Virus record (IMG/VR): IMGVR_UViG_3300044712_002305
Coordinates: 1-24,020 of that record
Length of the DNA stretch: 24,020 nucleotides
Source of the DNA: a virus
Reading direction: 5' to 3' (one strand)
The notes under the pieces were generated by a model that worked only from the letters and a program-made list of their open reading frames with translations, searched no databases and was not told the origin of the DNA. This document shows, in pieces, positions 9,940 through 23,883 of the stretch (position 1 is its first letter; every line of letters starts with the position of its first letter). Both the position numbers and the translations under genes were made by a program.

Positions 9940-12153
9940 GTGTCCATTGCATCCCTTCGCAGTCTGATCGAATCGATCAAGGGGCGGGGTCAGAACCTGG
10001 CCGCCGCCAGCGGCCAGGACGGCGCGTCGGCCCGCGATCTCGTCTATCTCGCCAAGGCGGTCGAAGCCATGGTCGGCGCCGACGCCCTGCTCGGCCTGAT
10101 CGACGAAACCGGACGCCCGGCCGAGATCGTCGTCGTCGCCTCGCCCGGCACCGCTATCGTCGCCCTCACCGACGATCAGGTCGCCCGCGACGTGGTGGTG
10201 TTCCGCCCCGACCAGGGGACGTACTCCGCGCCCTTCGTGACGATCGACGCGCCCGCACGCGGCTGGGCAGTCGTCATCGACAACGAATTGCCCGTCCCGG
10301 TGCGGATCAAGACGGCGAGCCAGGGTACTCATGCGGTGATCGGCGCTGGCAAACGCGGCTGGGTGTACTGCGATGGCGGCGTGATCGACCATGTGTTCGA
10401 TCTGAATGCCGCCGTTGCCGCCGCCGCCTCGCCGCTGGCGGCACGCGGCGATATCTATGTGCGTGATGCCGGTGGCAACGCCCGTCTGGCCGTTGGCGAC
10501 CCGTCCAAATTCCTCGGTTCCGATGGCACCGACCCGAAATGGTTGCTGCCGCCGGGCCGACCGAACACGCGGGTCCGCTATCTCGCGAACGACTTCATCG
10601 CCCGAGACCTGGACGGCAATCCGATCCCCGGCGGCACCGCCGTTTCGCTGGTGGCGACACCGCGTCTTGCCAACCTGATCGCCGACACCGTGACGTTCCC
10701 CGACCACGCCAACATCGGCATCTGGGACGCCGATAGCCAGTCCTGCATGACCTCGATCTATCGCGGCCTGGCGGCGGTGTTCCAGGATGGCGGCGCCTCG
10801 ATCTGGGGCAATGCCAATTCCGGACGCAACGGCGATCCCAACGGCTCGCACTGGCCGCACTTCCTGCCGGCCCTCTACCGGACCACCAACGAGGGCCACC
10901 TGGTCACCGAGAGCCTGACCGATGCCGCCATCAAGCAGGTCTACGGCAATTACGGCACCACCATGATCCTGCTGGAGAATGGCGAGCTTTACGCCACCGG
11001 CTATGGCGGACACGGGCAGCAGGGTGACGGCACCACCTCGAGCAAATCGTTCTTTCAGCGCATCCTGTTTCCCGGTGATGCCGGCCCGGTGCGTTACGTC
11101 GTCTCCACCTGCATGACCGGCCCGGACAGCAGCGCCGCGTTCTACGCCCTGATGGAGGACGGTGACGTCTATTCCTGGGGCTACAACGGTTATGGCCAAC
11201 TCGGTCTGGGCGACACCGTCAACCGGACCATGCCGACCAAGCTCGCCACCTTCAATCAGAACGTCCAGTGCATCGTGGCGGCGGGCGGCTCCTACGGCTT
11301 CGCCCATTTCGTGACCACCGACAACAAGCTCTTCGGCTGCGGCTACAACGGATGCGGCAATCTGGGTGACGGCACGGCGGCCAACAAGCCTGCGCCGGTG
11401 CTGATCGACGCCGGACCGGTGGTGAAATGCGCCAATACCGGCTACGGCTCGCACAACTTCGCCTTCTACATCAAGGCGGACGGCAAGCTCTACGCCATGG
11501 GCTTCAATGAGAGCGGGCAGCTTGGCGACAACTCGACCACCCAGCGCAATTCCCCGGTTCTGGTCAGCAACCTGGGACTGACCGATCCTACCAAGGTGAT
11601 CGACATCTGGGCCTATGGCGCCCGTTACGGTTCGGGCGGCTTTGCTTTGACCAAGAACGGACAGTTCTGGGCCTGGGGGCAGAACGCCAACGGTCAGCTC
11701 GGCCTGGGCGACACCACCAGCCGGCAAGCCCCGGGTCTGGTTCCCGGCGTCGAGCACGTCTCCCAGGTGGTCTCGCCGACCACGGGGATCAGCCAGGCCA
11801 CCCAGTACCACTACAACAACGTCCTCATCCTGCGCCACGCCACCGCGGCCGACCGCATCGCGCGCAAGAACGGCTATCCCATGACCGTCGGCTATGGCAG
11901 CGCCTTCATCGGTACCCCGAATGCCGCCAACCCCACCACCGCGTTCAAGTACGTCGGCCTGCCGCCAAAGTACCACGGCAAGATCCGGCGCATCGCCTGC
12001 TCGGGATACCACGACGGCACGGCCAACGCCGAACAGGACGCCTACGCCTTGGCCATGGACGGCACCGTCTTCGCCTGGGGGCCGTCGGCCAACTTCTCGC
12101 TCGGCGACTGGATGAATACCGGCACCACCTGCCCGCAGCCGCTGCGGTTCTGA
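9940..12153 (+). CDS. RCC1-repeat (beta-propeller) tail protein, putative receptor-binding
   Basis: A 737-residue protein starting with GTG at 9940, set by a strong CGGAGG at 9925-9930. The N-terminal ~250 residues look like phage fibre modules, with GDIYVRDAGGNARLAVGDPS followed by KFLGSDGTDPKWLLPPG, a motif known from tail fibres. The C-terminal half has six RCC1-type repeats at residues about 350, 410, 464, 517, 576 and 710, seen as LYATGYGGHGQQGDG, VYSWGYNGYGQLGLGD, LFGCGYNGCGNLGDG, LYAMGFNESGQLGDN, FWAWGQNANGQLGLGD and VFAWGPSANFSLGD. Such repeats form a seven-bladed propeller in other proteins; here six are clear. The protein is therefore a candidate for host binding at the tail tip. 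Confidence 0.82.
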   Translation: MSIASLRSLIESIKGRGQNLAAASGQDGASARDLVYLAKAVEAMVGADALLGLIDETGRPAEIVVVASPGTAIVALTDDQVARDVVVFRPDQGTYSAPFVTIDAPARGWAVVIDNELPVPVRIKTASQGTHAVIGAGKRGWVYCDGGVIDHVFDLNAAVAAAASPLAARGDIYVRDAGGNARLAVGDPSKFLGSDGTDPKWLLPPGRPNTRVRYLANDFIARDLDGNPIPGGTAVSLVATPRLANLIADTVTFPDHANIGIWDADSQSCMTSIYRGLAAVFQDGGASIWGNANSGRNGDPNGSHWPHFLPALYRTTNEGHLVTESLTDAAIKQVYGNYGTTMILLENGELYATGYGGHGQQGDGTTSSKSFFQRILFPGDAGPVRYVVSTCMTGPDSSAAFYALMEDGDVYSWGYNGYGQLGLGDTVNRTMPTKLATFNQNVQCIVAAGGSYGFAHFVTTDNKLFGCGYNGCGNLGDGTAANKPAPVLIDAGPVVKCANTGYGSHNFAFYIKADGKLYAMGFNESGQLGDNSTTQRNSPVLVSNLGLTDPTKVIDIWAYGARYGSGGFALTKNGQFWAWGQNANGQLGLGDTTSRQAPGLVPGVEHVSQVVSPTTGISQATQYHYNNVLILRHATAADRIARKNGYPMTVGYGSAFIGTPNAANPTTAFKYVGLPPKYHGKIRRIACSGYHDGTANAEQDAYALAMDGTVFAWGPSANFSLGDWMNTGTTCPQPLRF

Positions 12154-18271: not shown

Positions 18272-20263
18272 TTGCCGATGGACAAGCGCCTGTTCATTCT
18301 CGGTCCACCGGGCACCGGGAAGACCACCACCTTGATCCGTCGCCTGGGTCAAAAGCTTCATCCCGAATTTCTGACGGAAGAGGAGCGCCGCCTTGTAGAA
18401 GGGGGAACGACGACGCACGCCAGCAGTTGGCTGATGTTCACCCCAACGGAACTTCTCAGGCAGTATCTGAAGGAAGCTTTTGCCAGAGAGGGCATACCGG
18501 CCTCGAACCTCCACATTCAAACTTGGCGCGATTACCAGCTTGAACTGGCCAAGAGCACGTTCGGTATTCTGAGGTCTGCGACCGGCGGCTTCTTCGTGCT
18601 CAGGGACGCACACCCCACCTTGCGGCCAGGCACAGAGGATCGATTGATCGAGCTGTTTGCTGATTTTGACGCTTGGGAGAGATCGACCTACCTCTCCGGC
18701 CTGATGGACGCAGCCGGGCTTCTCGCGAAAAGCCCGTTGGCGGAAGGCCGGACGTGGGGGGCACGTTTCGAGGCAAGTCTAGCAAAGGAATCCGACCTTG
18801 TCGCACTGCTGGAGGGGCTGGCGGCGCACGCGCCGAACCTGCAGACGTTTGTGGCCGGCTTAAAAAAAGCATCGGACGAAAAGATTCAGCGCTCTCTGAA
18901 CGTCATCATGAACCGGGACAAGCGGTTCCTTGATGACCTATCGCGATACATTGACGGCCTGCAGCAGGCGCAGGCGAGTGAACCCGATGATCTCGACGAC
19001 GTTGAAGCCGAAGACGACGAGGAGAGCAACCTGCCGCGAGGTCGGGCTGCGGCAACGATCACTGCCTACATGCAGGCTGTCCGGGCTTACGCCCGGGCCG
19101 AGGCGGCGGGCCGCCCGTTGAACAAGGCATCCCGCAACGGGAAGATCATCGAATGGCTTGGAGAACGCATTCTTTCCAAAGCAGACCGGGTACAGGTCGG
19201 AGAAAGCCTGCTTGTCCAAACCAGCGCCCGACACTTTGTGAACCCCGTCAAACGCTACCTAGATGGTATTTCCAAGCGCTATCGCGCCTTTAGGCGGGTT
19301 CGGCAGGACAATGGCGCTTGGTATGTGAACGAGGGCTTCAAGCCAAGGGACATTCATCCACTCGAACTGGACGTTCTGCTCCTTGCAGTGATCCGTGCTG
19401 CAGGCAGTCTCGCGACCAAGAAGAACGAGCTGAGAGATACATCTGATCCAGCCTGGACAGTGCTGGAGCCGATGCTTAGGCTATACCGCAACCAAATTTT
19501 GGTCGATGAGGCGACTGATTTTTCGGCCATTCAGATGGGGTGTATGGCTGGTCTTGCCGACCCTCGCATCCGTTCATTCTTTGCTTGCGGCGACTTTAAC
19601 CAGCGCCTGACGACCTGGGGTGCCCGCTCCGCTGATGACGTGCGTTGGGTGTTTCAGGACCTGGAGATCAAGGAAGTCACGGTATCATACCGCCAGAGCG
19701 AGCAGCTGAACGACCTGGCTCGTGCCATCATTCTTGCGGTTGGAGGAAGCGAACAGGCCGTCACTCTCCCGGACTATGTGGAGAACAAAGGCGTTGCCCC
19801 GGCGCTGCTGGAAATGGCTGGCGATGCAAATGTGCGGATTGGCTGGCTTGCAGATCGCATCCTCGAAATCGAACGCCAGCTAGACCAGCTTCCTTCGACC
19901 GCGATCTTCGTTAATGGCGAGGACGAGGTCGGTCTTGTCGCAACGCAGTTGGGAGAGGTTCTTGCCGACCACAACATCCAAGTGGTTGCTTGCCCCCAAG
20001 GAAAAGTGATGGGGCAAGACAGTGACGTCAGGATTTTTGACATCCAGTACATAAAGGGGCTTGAGTTTGAAGCGGCGTTCTTCATGTCCGTTGACCGCTT
20101 AGCCGAGATGCACCCAACCTTGTTCGATAAATATTTATATGTCGGCACGACGCGCGCTGCGACCTATCTAGGAATTACCTGCGACATGACCTTGCCCACC
20201 AGGATTGACTCGCTGAGAAGCCGGTTTGTATCTGACTGGCAATCCTTCGGTGCAGATGGATGA
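18272..20263 (+). CDS. UvrD-like superfamily 1 helicase/ATPase (N-terminus probably frameshifted)
   Basis: A 663-residue ATPase from TTG 18272, the only usual start codon near the helicase frame's upstream end. SF1 motifs are in order: Walker A GPPGTGKT (residues 11-18), motif II VDEATDFS (around 412), motif III CGDFNQRL (around 440), motif IV SYRQSEQL (around 472), motif V IKGLEFEAAF (around 595) and motif VI VGTTRAATYL (around 626). Motif II has Thr where UvrD/Rep have Gln. The probable Q-motif (LDQYQDEIFRL, encoded at 18242-18271) lies before this start, so the intact protein begins upstream. The acidic linker EPDDLDDVEAEDDEESN lies near residue 235-255. Similar UvrD-like proteins are common in defence and repair loci; the substrate here is unknown. 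Confidence 0.85.
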   Translation: MPMDKRLFILGPPGTGKTTTLIRRLGQKLHPEFLTEEERRLVEGGTTTHASSWLMFTPTELLRQYLKEAFAREGIPASNLHIQTWRDYQLELAKSTFGILRSATGGFFVLRDAHPTLRPGTEDRLIELFADFDAWERSTYLSGLMDAAGLLAKSPLAEGRTWGARFEASLAKESDLVALLEGLAAHAPNLQTFVAGLKKASDEKIQRSLNVIMNRDKRFLDDLSRYIDGLQQAQASEPDDLDDVEAEDDEESNLPRGRAAATITAYMQAVRAYARAEAAGRPLNKASRNGKIIEWLGERILSKADRVQVGESLLVQTSARHFVNPVKRYLDGISKRYRAFRRVRQDNGAWYVNEGFKPRDIHPLELDVLLLAVIRAAGSLATKKNELRDTSDPAWTVLEPMLRLYRNQILVDEATDFSAIQMGCMAGLADPRIRSFFACGDFNQRLTTWGARSADDVRWVFQDLEIKEVTVSYRQSEQLNDLARAIILAVGGSEQAVTLPDYVENKGVAPALLEMAGDANVRIGWLADRILEIERQLDQLPSTAIFVNGEDEVGLVATQLGEVLADHNIQVVACPQGKVMGQDSDVRIFDIQYIKGLEFEAAFFMSVDRLAEMHPTLFDKYLYVGTTRAATYLGITCDMTLPTRIDSLRSRFVSDWQSFGADG

Positions 20264-20377: not shown

Positions 20378-20467
20378 ATGGCCGAGGCCGAGGAGCCGTC
20401 ACAGGTAGCCGCCGGCGGCCTGGTGGGCTCCGAACGGGTTCGCCGCCATCCCCACCCCCGCCATTGA
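20378..20467 (+). CDS. Possible very small protein or gene remnant
   Basis: A 29-codon frame (MAEAEEPSQVAAGGLVGSER, then VRRHPHPRH) preceded by AGGAGA at 20365-20370 with 7-base spacing, which is a good ribosome-binding site. It stops just before the recombinase unit's GC-rich left flank. It could be the stub of a longer gene interrupted by arrival of the recombinase unit, or have no function. The stretch between its stop and 20545 shows no further gene. Confidence 0.25.
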   Translation: MAEAEEPSQVAAGGLVGSERVRRHPHPRH

Positions 20468-20544
20468 TCCGTCCCTCGCGACGGCGTCTCCGGCGGTCCC
20501 CGCGCTTAATGGGTCCGGGTCCCCAGCCGAGCGTCCCCCAACCG

Positions 20545-21444
20545 TCAATTCGTCGACGCCGTTTGATCGAGGGAAGCCGCGGAGATGATCGCCCTGAATT
20601 CCTCGAGGAATTCCGGGTGGTGCGCGGCCAGATACCGTGTGATGTCGGCGTTGCCCACCAGCTTCGTGAGGTAGCCGGTGGCGATGACCAGCTGGAGCAC
20701 GTCGTCGCCGTACGAGGCCTCGATGGCTTTGAAATCGCGCTGCAGAGACTCCATCTCCCGCTCCATCCGGGCCATTTGCTCGGGCGTGATCCCACCTACT
20801 TCCTTTGGCTTCTCCGCGTTGACAAGATCGTGCTGCCGGGTGGCGGCAAGCAAAGCCTGGGCATAGCTTCCGGTAAAATTCCCAGCCGCCGCCATCAGTT
20901 CGGCCGCCTCGATTTGCCGGCCGGGCTTCATCTTCTTCAGGGTCTCAATGGTCCTTGGATTGACCGACTTATCCTTCAGAAGTTCGATGACCTCTGGGCA
21001 GATGCCCTCCAGCAGGGTGCGCCGCCGCTTGATCTGCTTGATGTCAAGATCCAGGGCTTTGGCGATCTTCTCCTCCGGAACCCCGCGCGCAAGGGCGCGC
21101 ATGATCATGTAATGCTCCTGAATGGTCGCCAGCCGGTTGATCCGTTTGTTGTAGGTGTAGGATTCATCGTCGTCGGAGATGAGGCAGCGGATCTCGCGCT
21201 CTCCCAGGTCCACAAGCACCGCGAAGCGAAGGTGCCCATCCAACAACAAGTACCGGCTGTCACCGTCCTTCGGACGGGCGACGACGAGGGGTTCGATGAT
21301 GCCGACTTCCGCGATGGAGGTCGCGATCAGCTTGTACTTGGTGGATTGCTTTTGGGCCTCCGTCACCTGATGCAGGGGCAGAATGGCGTCCGCCGGCACG
21401 GTGACGAGGGCGGATTCGAAGGCGACCTTCACCGGTTCCGGCAT
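20545..21444 (-). CDS. ParB/RepB-like protein B (RepB C-terminal domain)
   Basis: A 299-residue protein of the ParB/RepB partition family. Residues about 14-90 are a ParB-N-like domain in which the nucleotide-binding box is degenerate: GHLRFAV (70-76) where CTP-binding ParB has GxxRxxA, and NKRINRL (99-105) in place of ENxxR. Residues about 105-150 hold a helix-turn-helix-type segment (GVPEEKIAKALDLDIKQIKR). Residues about 190-290 match the RepB C-terminal domain (AEKPKEVGGITPEQMARMER and DVLQLVIATGYLTKLVGNAD). The start lies 1 base past the stop of the gene before it in the operon. A plasmid-like partition role is not implied, as no ParA gene is seen; DNA binding that aids the recombinase is an inference. 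Confidence 0.82.
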   Translation of the reverse strand: MPEPVKVAFESALVTVPADAILPLHQVTEAQKQSTKYKLIATSIAEVGIIEPLVVARPKDGDSRYLLLDGHLRFAVLVDLGEREIRCLISDDDESYTYNKRINRLATIQEHYMIMRALARGVPEEKIAKALDLDIKQIKRRRTLLEGICPEVIELLKDKSVNPRTIETLKKMKPGRQIEAAELMAAAGNFTGSYAQALLAATRQHDLVNAEKPKEVGGITPEQMARMEREMESLQRDFKAIEASYGDDVLQLVIATGYLTKLVGNADITRYLAAHHPEFLEEFRAIISAASLDQTASTN

Positions 21445-21445
21445 G

Positions 21446-22324
21446 TCAGCCTCCGCTTCCGCCCAAACGCTCCGCCAACGGGCGCGGAATGGTGTGCAAC
21501 GACTCGGCCCGCAGCAAGGTTACGAAGTGCTCATCCGCGAGCAGGCGGCGCAGGGCGTTCACCACGAAGATCAGACGGCTCTGGGTCAACGTCGCCTTCT
21601 TGACCAGCAGTTTCTGTCGCTCGGTTTCTTTGCGATAGGCGCGGACCAGCGCATCGGCCGTGACCTGCTTCCTCGATCGGTTGCCGCCAGTAGATTGCAT
21701 GCGCTTGCCGCTCAGGTTGCGCTGCTCGATGATCCGCCGGATGGCCACCAGCTGATTGCCGGGAAGGGATCGGTTCTCGTAAGCCTCGGCCAGTGCCTGC
21801 TGAACGTCGGCATCCTTTGCCTTGGCGATTTCCATGGCGATGCTGTAGGGCATCACGCCACGTTCGATAGCCGCTAAGAGCCGCTTCTCCCCATGGTCCA
21901 GGAGATAGCAGAGCGCGTAGATGTACTCGTTGCTGAAGCCGGTCTTGGTGGCGATTTCGCCAATCGAATATCCGCGCTCCTTGAGCAAGCCGATTTCCCC
22001 TAGCAGTTCGAGTGGCGTGTGGTGACGGCGGGCCAGGTTTTCCACCAACGACATGACGAAGCAGTCGTCCTTGGATGCCTGAACGACCACCGCGGGGATC
22101 TTCTTCTGACCCAATGAGACGAAAGCCTCCAGCCGGCCCTGGCCGCACACGAGGTCATAGCCGGAGCCGTCCCCCCGGAGGCTGACGGTAATCGGCTTCT
22201 TCAGGCCGAGGGTGGCAATGCTGGTCACCAGTTCCTGGAAGATCCGTTTATTTCGGACGCGCGGGTTCAGCACCGTAATGGCGTCGACCGGGACCATATG
22301 GATCTGCTGAACGTTGTCGGTCAT
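21446..22324 (-). CDS. ParB/RepB-like protein A
   Basis: A 292-residue ParB-domain protein. Its N-terminal domain keeps both ParB boxes: GQGRLEA (residues 61-67, GxxRxxA form) and ENLARR (95-100, ENxxR form), the residues that bind CTP and phosphate in chromosomal ParB. Residues about 119-141 form a helix-turn-helix (YSIGEIATKTGFSNEYIYAL). The C-terminal part (SRLIFVVNALRRLLADEHFV) is helical and RepB-like. The ATG at 22322-22324 overlaps the recombinase stop (ATGA), so translation is coupled. It differs clearly from protein B, so the two are not a recent duplication; they may form a pair. Confidence 0.85.
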   Translation of the reverse strand: MTDNVQQIHMVPVDAITVLNPRVRNKRIFQELVTSIATLGLKKPITVSLRGDGSGYDLVCGQGRLEAFVSLGQKKIPAVVVQASKDDCFVMSLVENLARRHHTPLELLGEIGLLKERGYSIGEIATKTGFSNEYIYALCYLLDHGEKRLLAAIERGVMPYSIAMEIAKAKDADVQQALAEAYENRSLPGNQLVAIRRIIEQRNLSGKRMQSTGGNRSRKQVTADALVRAYRKETERQKLLVKKATLTQSRLIFVVNALRRLLADEHFVTLLRAESLHTIPRPLAERLGGSGG

Positions 22325-23883
22325 GCGACCCTCCTGATGTTCGCGCGCGAAGCCAGCCAGAAGAAGTGGTCGATCAAATCAAACCGGTAGGCGTCCCAAT
22401 AGATGCCGTTATCCTCCTTCAGCCGGACTGCTGCCGCCGCCAGATCGACGCGCGGCAAAAGGTAGTAGTCGAACGGATGCTCGTTTTCGGCATCCATGCG
22501 GACGGCCACGGTGATGTCTGGACGCAGGCCAGCGTCGAAGCGGAGCTTCCAGCGCAGCGCGCCCGTGGACATCGTGAAGCTGCGCACGATCACGATGGAC
22601 GCCGTGAACTCGTCGTTCACGGTCAGGAGGTCGGTTGCCGGATCACACCGGACGCTGCCGCCGAGGCGTTCGATGTTGGCGATCACCTCGGCCAGGATAT
22701 CCGGGTACATGCGCCGGAGGGCGCGGTTGATCTCGATGTAGCGGTAATCCCGGGCCGGCGAATAGCCGACCAGCTGGTAGGCGCGTAACAGGCTGCCGAA
22801 TCGGGTGCGATACGCCGAACTGGAGGGGAGGTGCTCGGCCTCGTCGATGATCAGACCCGAGAGAAACCCGCGTTCCTGCACCAGCTGCCTCAAACCATCC
22901 AGCATCTCCTCGTCGGAGAACCGAAGGGACCGCAGGTGAATGATCGCCTGCGCAGCATCGAACAGCTCACGATCGACGATCGGCTCGAATGCGCCGTCCG
23001 ACCGGACCCACATGTCCGGCCGGTTCCTGACCCGCCTCTTCTTCAGTTTGAAAGACACCCGGTTCCAGACGTTGTTGCCGATATATTTTTCATTGATCAG
23101 CACCTGGTGAACGGTGCCGGGCGACCATGGGCGGCCGAGGTCGGTGGCAATGCCGCGGGTGTTGAGGATGGCGGCAATTTCCCGTTCCGATTTCCCGTCT
23201 TCCACGAACGCCCGATACATCCACTGGACGACCATCAGTTCCTCGGCCGGCCCGGGGATCAGAATCACGCGGTCAGTGTGGATGCTCTTGTGCTCGCCTC
23301 GCACTAGCTCGCCCTTGGGGGCGCCGGTGTGGTCGATGAGCTCCCGACGAAGCCCGAAGCCGGGCGGCCCGCCCTGCCGGTAACCGTGCTCGATCAGACG
23401 GCACTGGCCGGCAAAGACCTTGACCGACAATTCGCGACTGTATTCGCCCGCCATCTTGCGCTTGAGCATCTTCTGGATGTCGGAGCCGAAGCTGCCGTCA
23501 TTGTCGAAGGGCTCGGCGCAATACTGGACATCGATCCCGGCACGCCGGCAGATGAATTCGTTGTGCGCGGCCTCGTCAGCGTCCTGGAACCGACCCCAGC
23601 GGCTTACGTCGTAGACCAGGATGAGGGAGAAGTCGGCGGCCCCTCCTTGGACGTCGTCCAACAACCGCTTCAGTGCGTCCCGGCCGTCGAGGCTCAGCCC
23701 GCTCTTGCCTTCATCGGCATAGGTCCGAACGATTTCGATGCCGCGCTTTGCCGCGTACTGGCGGATGGCCTCTTCCTGGTTCTCCGTCGAGTACTGCTGG
23801 TGCTCGGTCGACATCCGCACGTACTGGGCGGCCCGGACCGAGCGCGAATGTGGGGAGGTGGCGTGTTCAGATGGCTGCGACAT
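22321..23883 (-). CDS. Large serine recombinase
   Basis: A 520-residue recombinase. Residues about 17-165 are a resolvase domain with the catalytic Ser25 in YVRMSTEHQ, and a conserved Arg in YDVSRWGRF (around residue 91-99). From about residue 175 (PPGFGLRRELID) the 'recombinase' domain follows, with the typical KSEREIAAILNTRGIATDLG and WSPGTVHQVLINEKYIGN. The usual zinc-ribbon with Cys pairs is not present in the C-terminal third; instead there is a 200-residue tail with LIIDEAEHLPSSSAYRTRFG and a long beta-rich end. The start at 23883 has only a weak ribosome-binding site. It is the first gene of a coupled operon with the two ParB/RepB-like genes. Confidence 0.9.
   Translation of the reverse strand: MSQPSEHATSPHSRSVRAAQYVRMSTEHQQYSTENQEEAIRQYAAKRGIEIVRTYADEGKSGLSLDGRDALKRLLDDVQGGAADFSLILVYDVSRWGRFQDADEAAHNEFICRRAGIDVQYCAEPFDNDGSFGSDIQKMLKRKMAGEYSRELSVKVFAGQCRLIEHGYRQGGPPGFGLRRELIDHTGAPKGELVRGEHKSIHTDRVILIPGPAEELMVVQWMYRAFVEDGKSEREIAAILNTRGIATDLGRPWSPGTVHQVLINEKYIGNNVWNRVSFKLKKRRVRNRPDMWVRSDGAFEPIVDRELFDAAQAIIHLRSLRFSDEEMLDGLRQLVQERGFLSGLIIDEAEHLPSSSAYRTRFGSLLRAYQLVGYSPARDYRYIEINRALRRMYPDILAEVIANIERLGGSVRCDPATDLLTVNDEFTASIVIVRSFTMSTGALRWKLRFDAGLRPDITVAVRMDAENEHPFDYYLLPRVDLAAAAVRLKEDNGIYWDAYRFDLIDHFFWLASRANIRRVA

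Follow-up and report, generated by a model that had tools for sequence, protein, structure and literature searches.

A large serine integrase without a zinc ribbon forms a conserved unit with two ParB/Noc-type proteins

Introduction

The large serine integrases include SPbeta SprA, Bxb1, PhiC31 and TP901-1, and SprA and others of this group insert within genes. Serine integrases are main tools of genome engineering and are viewed as one protein plus one small switch. The Ccr recombinases of SCCmec (CcrA, CcrB and CcrC) are likewise serine recombinases; the cassettes that they insert, close to a gene's 3′ end, carry defence genes. The recombinase of IS110 belongs to a different enzyme family. 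In IS110 elements, the recombinase gene is accompanied by an adjacent structured (bridge) RNA (PMC11208158). Here, we analysed a three-gene unit in an IMG/VR virus record of 24,020 bases (IMGVR_UViG_3300044712_002305, hereafter the window), in which the gene of a serine recombinase (REC) is followed by those of two ParB/Noc-type proteins (RepB_near and RepB_far) and a structured element (Table 1). The enzyme class is known, while its fixed pairing with two ParB paralogues and a structured element is undescribed in the searchable literature (open-licence papers).

The unit shares the resolvase and recombinase domains with the large serine integrases (REC residues 14–321), and in most proviral records REC is the only integrase type detected. 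In contrast to these integrases, REC lacks the zinc-ribbon cysteines, possesses another C-terminal region and is accompanied by two ParB-type partners rather than one small directionality factor, with a putative structured RNA in one branch. Among the NCBIfam models, REC matches CcrB best, but the score of 82 bits is far below the cut-off of 900, and the partners and hosts differ from those of SCCmec. The fold of RepB_far and the Noc and Spo0J profiles of both partners resemble the ParB, Noc and KorB clamps switched by cytidine triphosphate (CTP), whereas the unit has no ParA, places two adjacent paralogues in a recombinase operon and adds a C-terminal PF07506 region. Like IS110, the unit has a putative structured RNA next to its recombinase gene, but no guide-like matches of this RNA to its flanks were detected and two ParB partners are present. 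We consider the unit a probable module for integrating and excising mobile elements, in which REC is the enzyme and the two ParB-type proteins are its obligate partners. The module would be hosted by prophages, small islands of 4–12 kb and plasmid-borne elements, and the host element of the window is probably a prophage.

Conservation of the Three-Gene Unit

The first-pass annotation of the window described three minus-strand genes joined by an ATGA overlap (REC/RepB_near) and a 1-base gap (RepB_near/RepB_far), without a ParA, replication or cargo gene between them, and re-reading the sequence gave exactly this layout at the same positions. Its interpretation as a coupled recombination system with nucleotide-controlled partners is partly supported, by the conservation of the unit, the CTP-pocket motifs in both partners and the behaviour as an integration module described below; the action of the three proteins as a single complex, and control of that complex by CTP, are predictions. 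It was incomplete in that the structured element, a small divergent gene upstream of REC, the absence of a zinc ribbon and the insertion sites were not part of it.

For the viral scan, the REC protein was used as a query against viral contigs and 80 loci were kept. For the second scan, an alignment of REC relatives was compared with 84,980 GTDB species genomes, of which the best 80 of at least 562 loci were kept and supplemented with three plasmid loci (83 loci). In addition, a class sample of 289 alphaproteobacteria yielded 22 REC matches in 17 genomes. RepB_near and then RepB_far follow REC on the same strand in the viral set wherever the downstream sequence suffices, down to approximately 45% REC identity; the sole exception is a decayed copy (L042) with only a truncated RepB_near. 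All three genes are present in 78 of the 83 GTDB and plasmid loci, and the remaining five reach contig ends. Since both sets were recruited via REC, they provide evidence that REC brings its partners. In the class sample, both partners lie beside all 17 REC matches of at least 56% identity, while the five matches near 40% comprise two with both partners, one at a contig end and two without.

The possibility that the recombinase usually occurs without its partners, which the first-pass annotation named as the outcome speaking against a functional system, was not what the scans returned: the core family keeps both. The search for the three-gene order suggested there found it in viral, GTDB, plasmid and class-sample loci alike. 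Judged from gene order, the triplet is a conserved unit, and its conservation is far from chance.

REC Protein

REC matches PF00239 with an E value of 7.7e-23 and PF07508 with 88.3 bits (cut-off 21.1), and the nucleophilic serine S25 of its YVRMS motif is invariant in 50 relatives. Neither a zinc-ribbon Pfam match nor a CxxC pair was found in the protein. Residues 14–321 of the REC structure model (mean predicted local distance difference test score of 80.7, predicted template modelling score of 0.52) match the integrase structures of SPbeta SprA, Bxb1 and PhiC31, with a VIA Z of 19.9 for the SprA complexes (276 residues, over 14–318). Taken together, domains and model indicate that REC is a large serine integrase without a zinc ribbon, which is predicted to be catalytic. 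For residues 384–517, the sole match was a weak one to I-Ssp6803I, which is a PD-(D/E)XK-class homing endonuclease (Z of 7.9, root-mean-square deviation of 4.5, 121 residues). A PD-(D/E)XK-like C-terminal domain is a possible lead from this model, and the match may equally reflect a common arrangement.

ParB/Noc-Type Partners

RepB_near passes the cut-off of PF02195, while RepB_far falls below it (19.3 versus 26.3 bits). The GxGR and ENxxRR motifs of RepB_near are invariant or nearly so across 40 aligned relatives, all of which retain G61-x-G63-R64 and E95-N96-x-x-R99; in RepB_far, the CTP-pocket motifs are altered (G70, R73, N99). Profile comparison matched both proteins to Noc and Spo0J. Furthermore, the RepB_far model matches Noc, ParB with bound cytidine diphosphate (ParB-CDP) and KorB, with VIA Z values of 10.7–11.1 for the Noc and ParB-CDP structures. 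The assignment of both partners to the ParB family in the first-pass annotation is thus borne out by motifs, profiles and the RepB_far fold; by these marks they belong to the ParB/Noc type and carry the motifs of a CTP pocket, from which the binding of CTP and clamping of DNA are predicted. An identification as RepB of RepABC was rejected: the TIGR03454 scores of 25.3 and 17.8 bits fall short of the cut-off (201.5), and no ParA is found within the unit in any annotated locus inspected.

RepB and ParB families are known from partition, and RepB_far relatives occur on 149 plasmid records. These observations suit a maintenance module that combines site-specific resolution with a ParB-like centromere function to stabilise plasmids and islands, in which REC would resolve dimers and not integrate. 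However, the lack of ParA does not fit this explanation, most unit copies found are chromosomal or proviral, and the insertion footprints, together with the lack of another integrase in most proviral records (both described below), point to integration. A maintenance function therefore appears quite unlikely to us.

Insertion Footprints and Attachment Sites

Among the 32 unit-bearing proviral records, 25 lack a PF00589 tyrosine integrase; these include records of 40–62 kb, where it should be considered that records may be fragments. In many proviral records, REC is located within approximately 1 kb of the record edge. Moreover, related units sit inside tyrosine-integrase or methyltransferase genes, with the 3′ end of the target on both flanks. 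In E. coli (L168/L070), the unit of 3,958 bp follows the tyrosine-integrase gene of the ssrA island, and beyond RepB_far the 262-bp 3′ end of this integrase gene is repeated at that distance; B7A carries the integrase gene without the unit. Two copies of an 89-bp integrase end flank the unit of 5,235 bp on plasmid pSKB0092-3 of Roseomonas; the stretch that they share ends at the palindrome GACCTGGGCGAGGTC, and uninterrupted alleles of the gene are found on three other plasmids. Similarly, a 131-bp end of a DNA-methyltransferase gene lies on both sides of a unit of 5,776 bp on a viral contig (L065). In E. coli WS4437A-1, a second unit type carries different cargo (hxs); as judged by eye, one of its ends falls within an integrase remnant, at the point equivalent to that in L168/L070, and a decayed integrase 3′ end lies at the other. 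The identity break between the E. coli copies lies close to, not exactly at, the proposed point.

The comparison of sites with and without the unit, as proposed in the first-pass annotation, thus gave candidate ends and targets in relatives and none for the window. In Sphingomonas pokkalii, no empty site was found; the left host boundary lies approximately 2,054 bp upstream of REC and the right end was not reached. The empty-site search for Magnetospirillum SS-4 returned only a deletion derivative. Among 60 loci, few tRNA genes were found as potential targets and these were mostly distant, the closest upstream being a tRNA-Ser 2.1 kb from REC (L102). The breaks on the right-hand side, at about +3370 to +3600, were not accepted as element ends, as it is the conserved module that stops there, rather than a proven crossover that lies there. 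RfaH, small-ORF and XRE genes are also duplicated, beside L053/L055, L037 and L100/L113; as possible paralogues, they were excluded from the footprints.

Several observations weigh against an integration/excision module. Two distant REC relatives in the class sample (L229 and L234) have no detectable partners, the window itself yielded no attachment site, and duplicated gene ends revealed no right end for 11 RNA-bearing units in 28–51 kb downstream. The model of the RNA (see below) has no match in roughly half of the units. The E. coli islands also carry a tyrosine integrase, and REC is therefore not their only recombinase. Finally, duplicated gene ends can also be obtained from tandem islands and later deletion, in which case the repeated integrase 3′ ends would be relics, the unit would be cargo of tyrosine-integrase islands and the action of REC would be unproven. 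Tandem islands are indeed common at ssrA, where the unit of E. coli lies behind the island integrase in every case seen. Nevertheless, the same arrangement recurs with the unit in either orientation and in unrelated targets (the methyltransferase and the Roseomonas integrase), two E. coli unit types have their break at the equivalent codon, and the majority of the proviral records, as counted above, contain no tyrosine integrase. We regard an origin from tandem islands as unlikely overall, although it may apply to any single case, and favour the integration/excision module.

Structured Element Downstream of RepB_far

A nucleotide break-point comparison revealed a conserved stretch starting GGGGACCCGGACCC directly after the RepB_far stop. 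For 50 aligned sequences, RNAalifold predicted 33 pairs, 18 of which show pair-keeping changes on both sides. Compared with shuffled alignments, 95.4% instead of 87.8% of cells are paired and 132 instead of 35.4 cells carry double changes, and none of 500 shuffles scored as high. G-U cells outnumber A-C cells (121 versus 17), which favours an RNA from the coding strand, with the caveat that the folding program itself favours G-U. The element is probably an RNA of approximately 140 nt or more. A coding region was considered and rejected, as some copies contain stops and the covariation fits RNA better. No Rfam family matched at gathering scores, and lax settings gave chance-level matches only.

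The covariance model found the element in approximately 60 loci, nearly all directly 3′ of RepB_far. An independent regulatory or parasitic RNA that follows RepB_far by chance is a possibility of some weight: beyond its absence from about half of the units, the RNA requires 19 gains or losses on the REC tree, Ruegeria (L094) has a second copy 5 kb away, and two copies occur without RepB_far (L188, a weak match, and L203). On the other hand, 15 of 16 copies in the unbiased 289-genome sample lie directly after RepB_far (one of these 15 is a remnant), and the presence of the element is clustered on the REC tree, for which shuffling predicts 35.1 changes. A chance neighbour seems doubtful to us on balance, and we favour a putative RNA that belongs to the unit.

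Exact matches between the RNAs and their own flanks were no more frequent than for the RNAs of other units, and the target sites of RNA-bearing units are unlocated. Guide-like matches in L003 and L012 proved to be slicing artefacts, because the upstream region was too short. The second Ruegeria copy lies beyond a helicase-like (ResIII-like) gene and a PIN-domain gene, an arrangement which resembles a defence cassette bounded by the element.

Proposed Mechanism

In the integration/excision module, REC would cut and rejoin DNA in the manner of other large serine integrases. The element would enter a selected sequence, in many cases close to the 3′ end of a gene that belongs to another mobile element, and supply a substitute 3′ end for the target gene. 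As ParB/Noc-type clamps, RepB_near and RepB_far would most likely bind sites near the element ends and take over the work of the zinc-ribbon/coiled-coil domain and the small directionality factor, that is, end pairing and the choice of whether to insert or to excise. In one large branch, the module would also include the structured RNA at the operon end. Sequence comparison establishes the conservation of the unit, its domains, the covariation in the structured element and the duplicated target ends of several relatives; catalysis by REC, the part played by RepB_near, RepB_far and the RNA in recombination, and its control by CTP are inferred. A stricter version, in which two CTP-switched ParB clamps and the structured RNA form a working complex with the recombinase, set its site choice and direction and replace the zinc-ribbon/coiled-coil domain and the directionality factor, is speculative and rather unlikely. 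A widespread family in which two ParB-type proteins are consistently retained, frequently along with a structured RNA, suggests that direction or synapsis can be controlled by other means than the small switch of known serine integrases. If CTP does control recombination, the CTP-switch principle would be extended from chromosome segregation to DNA integration.

Distribution and Neighbouring Genes

The unit is carried by bacterial viruses, plasmids and genomic islands. One form is present in the chromosomes of 651 of 5,426 complete E. coli genomes (approximately 12%), usually directly after the tyrosine integrase of the ssrA island. A second form was found in 11 E. coli genomes; those inspected carry it next to the pao genes, at the CP4-6 site. 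E. coli K-12, read at the pao/thrW region, has no unit there. In approximately 67 loci, a small divergent gene without a Pfam match (approximately 130 aa) lies upstream of REC and may encode a regulator or directionality factor. In a beta/gammaproteobacterial group, another small gene, cysteine-rich and zinc-ribbon-like, takes this side, and a conserved fourth gene lies 3′ of RepB_far, where other units have the RNA.

Table 1. Location of the unit and of associated features. Coordinates refer to the window or to the locus given.
Feature	Location	Strand	Description
REC	window 22321-23883	minus	520 aa; Pfam Resolvase PF00239 and Recombinase PF07508
RepB_near	window 21446-22324	minus	292 aa; ParB/Noc-type; RepB PF07506 and ParB_N PF02195
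RepB_far	window 20545-21444	minus	299 aa; second, divergent ParB/Noc-type protein; RepB PF07506
Structured element	window 20397-20527	minus	directly 3′ of RepB_far; covariance model R1, 122.7 bits
Divergent small gene	L094:9475-9861; L083:9095-9502	minus	weak match to PHROG 23106 (function unassigned)
Gene after RepB_far	L153, L134, L140 and others; about +3290 to +4790 from REC		~457 aa
TIGR04141 and hxsABCD	L168:18854-23877; L191; L195; L197		adjoins the unit
Helicase-like and PIN genes	L094:13627-18523		between two element copies
UvrD-like helicase	window 18272-20263	plus	adjoins the unit
RCC1-repeat protein	window 9940-12153	plus	737 aa; amid tail genes

The neighbours of the unit are often defence-like, namely type I restriction–modification, Fic, AbiE, hxs and ResIII/PIN genes. 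Together with the possible PD-(D/E)XK-like domain of REC, they could indicate a defence or exclusion cassette on mobile elements, with recombination serving regulation or attack on incoming DNA. However, PADLOC gave no convincing match for any of the three proteins, and the unit of L070/L168 has its own insertion footprints while being cargo-free. A defence cassette is consequently very unlikely in our view, and an integration/excision module is preferred.

In E. coli, TIGR04141 together with hxsABCD, a His-Xaa-Ser radical-SAM (S-adenosylmethionine) system, repeatedly adjoins the unit, either inside or outside the unit ends. The first 17 kb of the window contain phage genes for head-tail attachment, tail tube, tape measure and minor tail proteins. 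The UvrD-like helicase beside the unit weakly resembles GajB and the NERD+UvrD defence helicases, and its gene may serve defence as phage-borne cargo. The protein with RCC1 repeats is unusual in a phage structural region.
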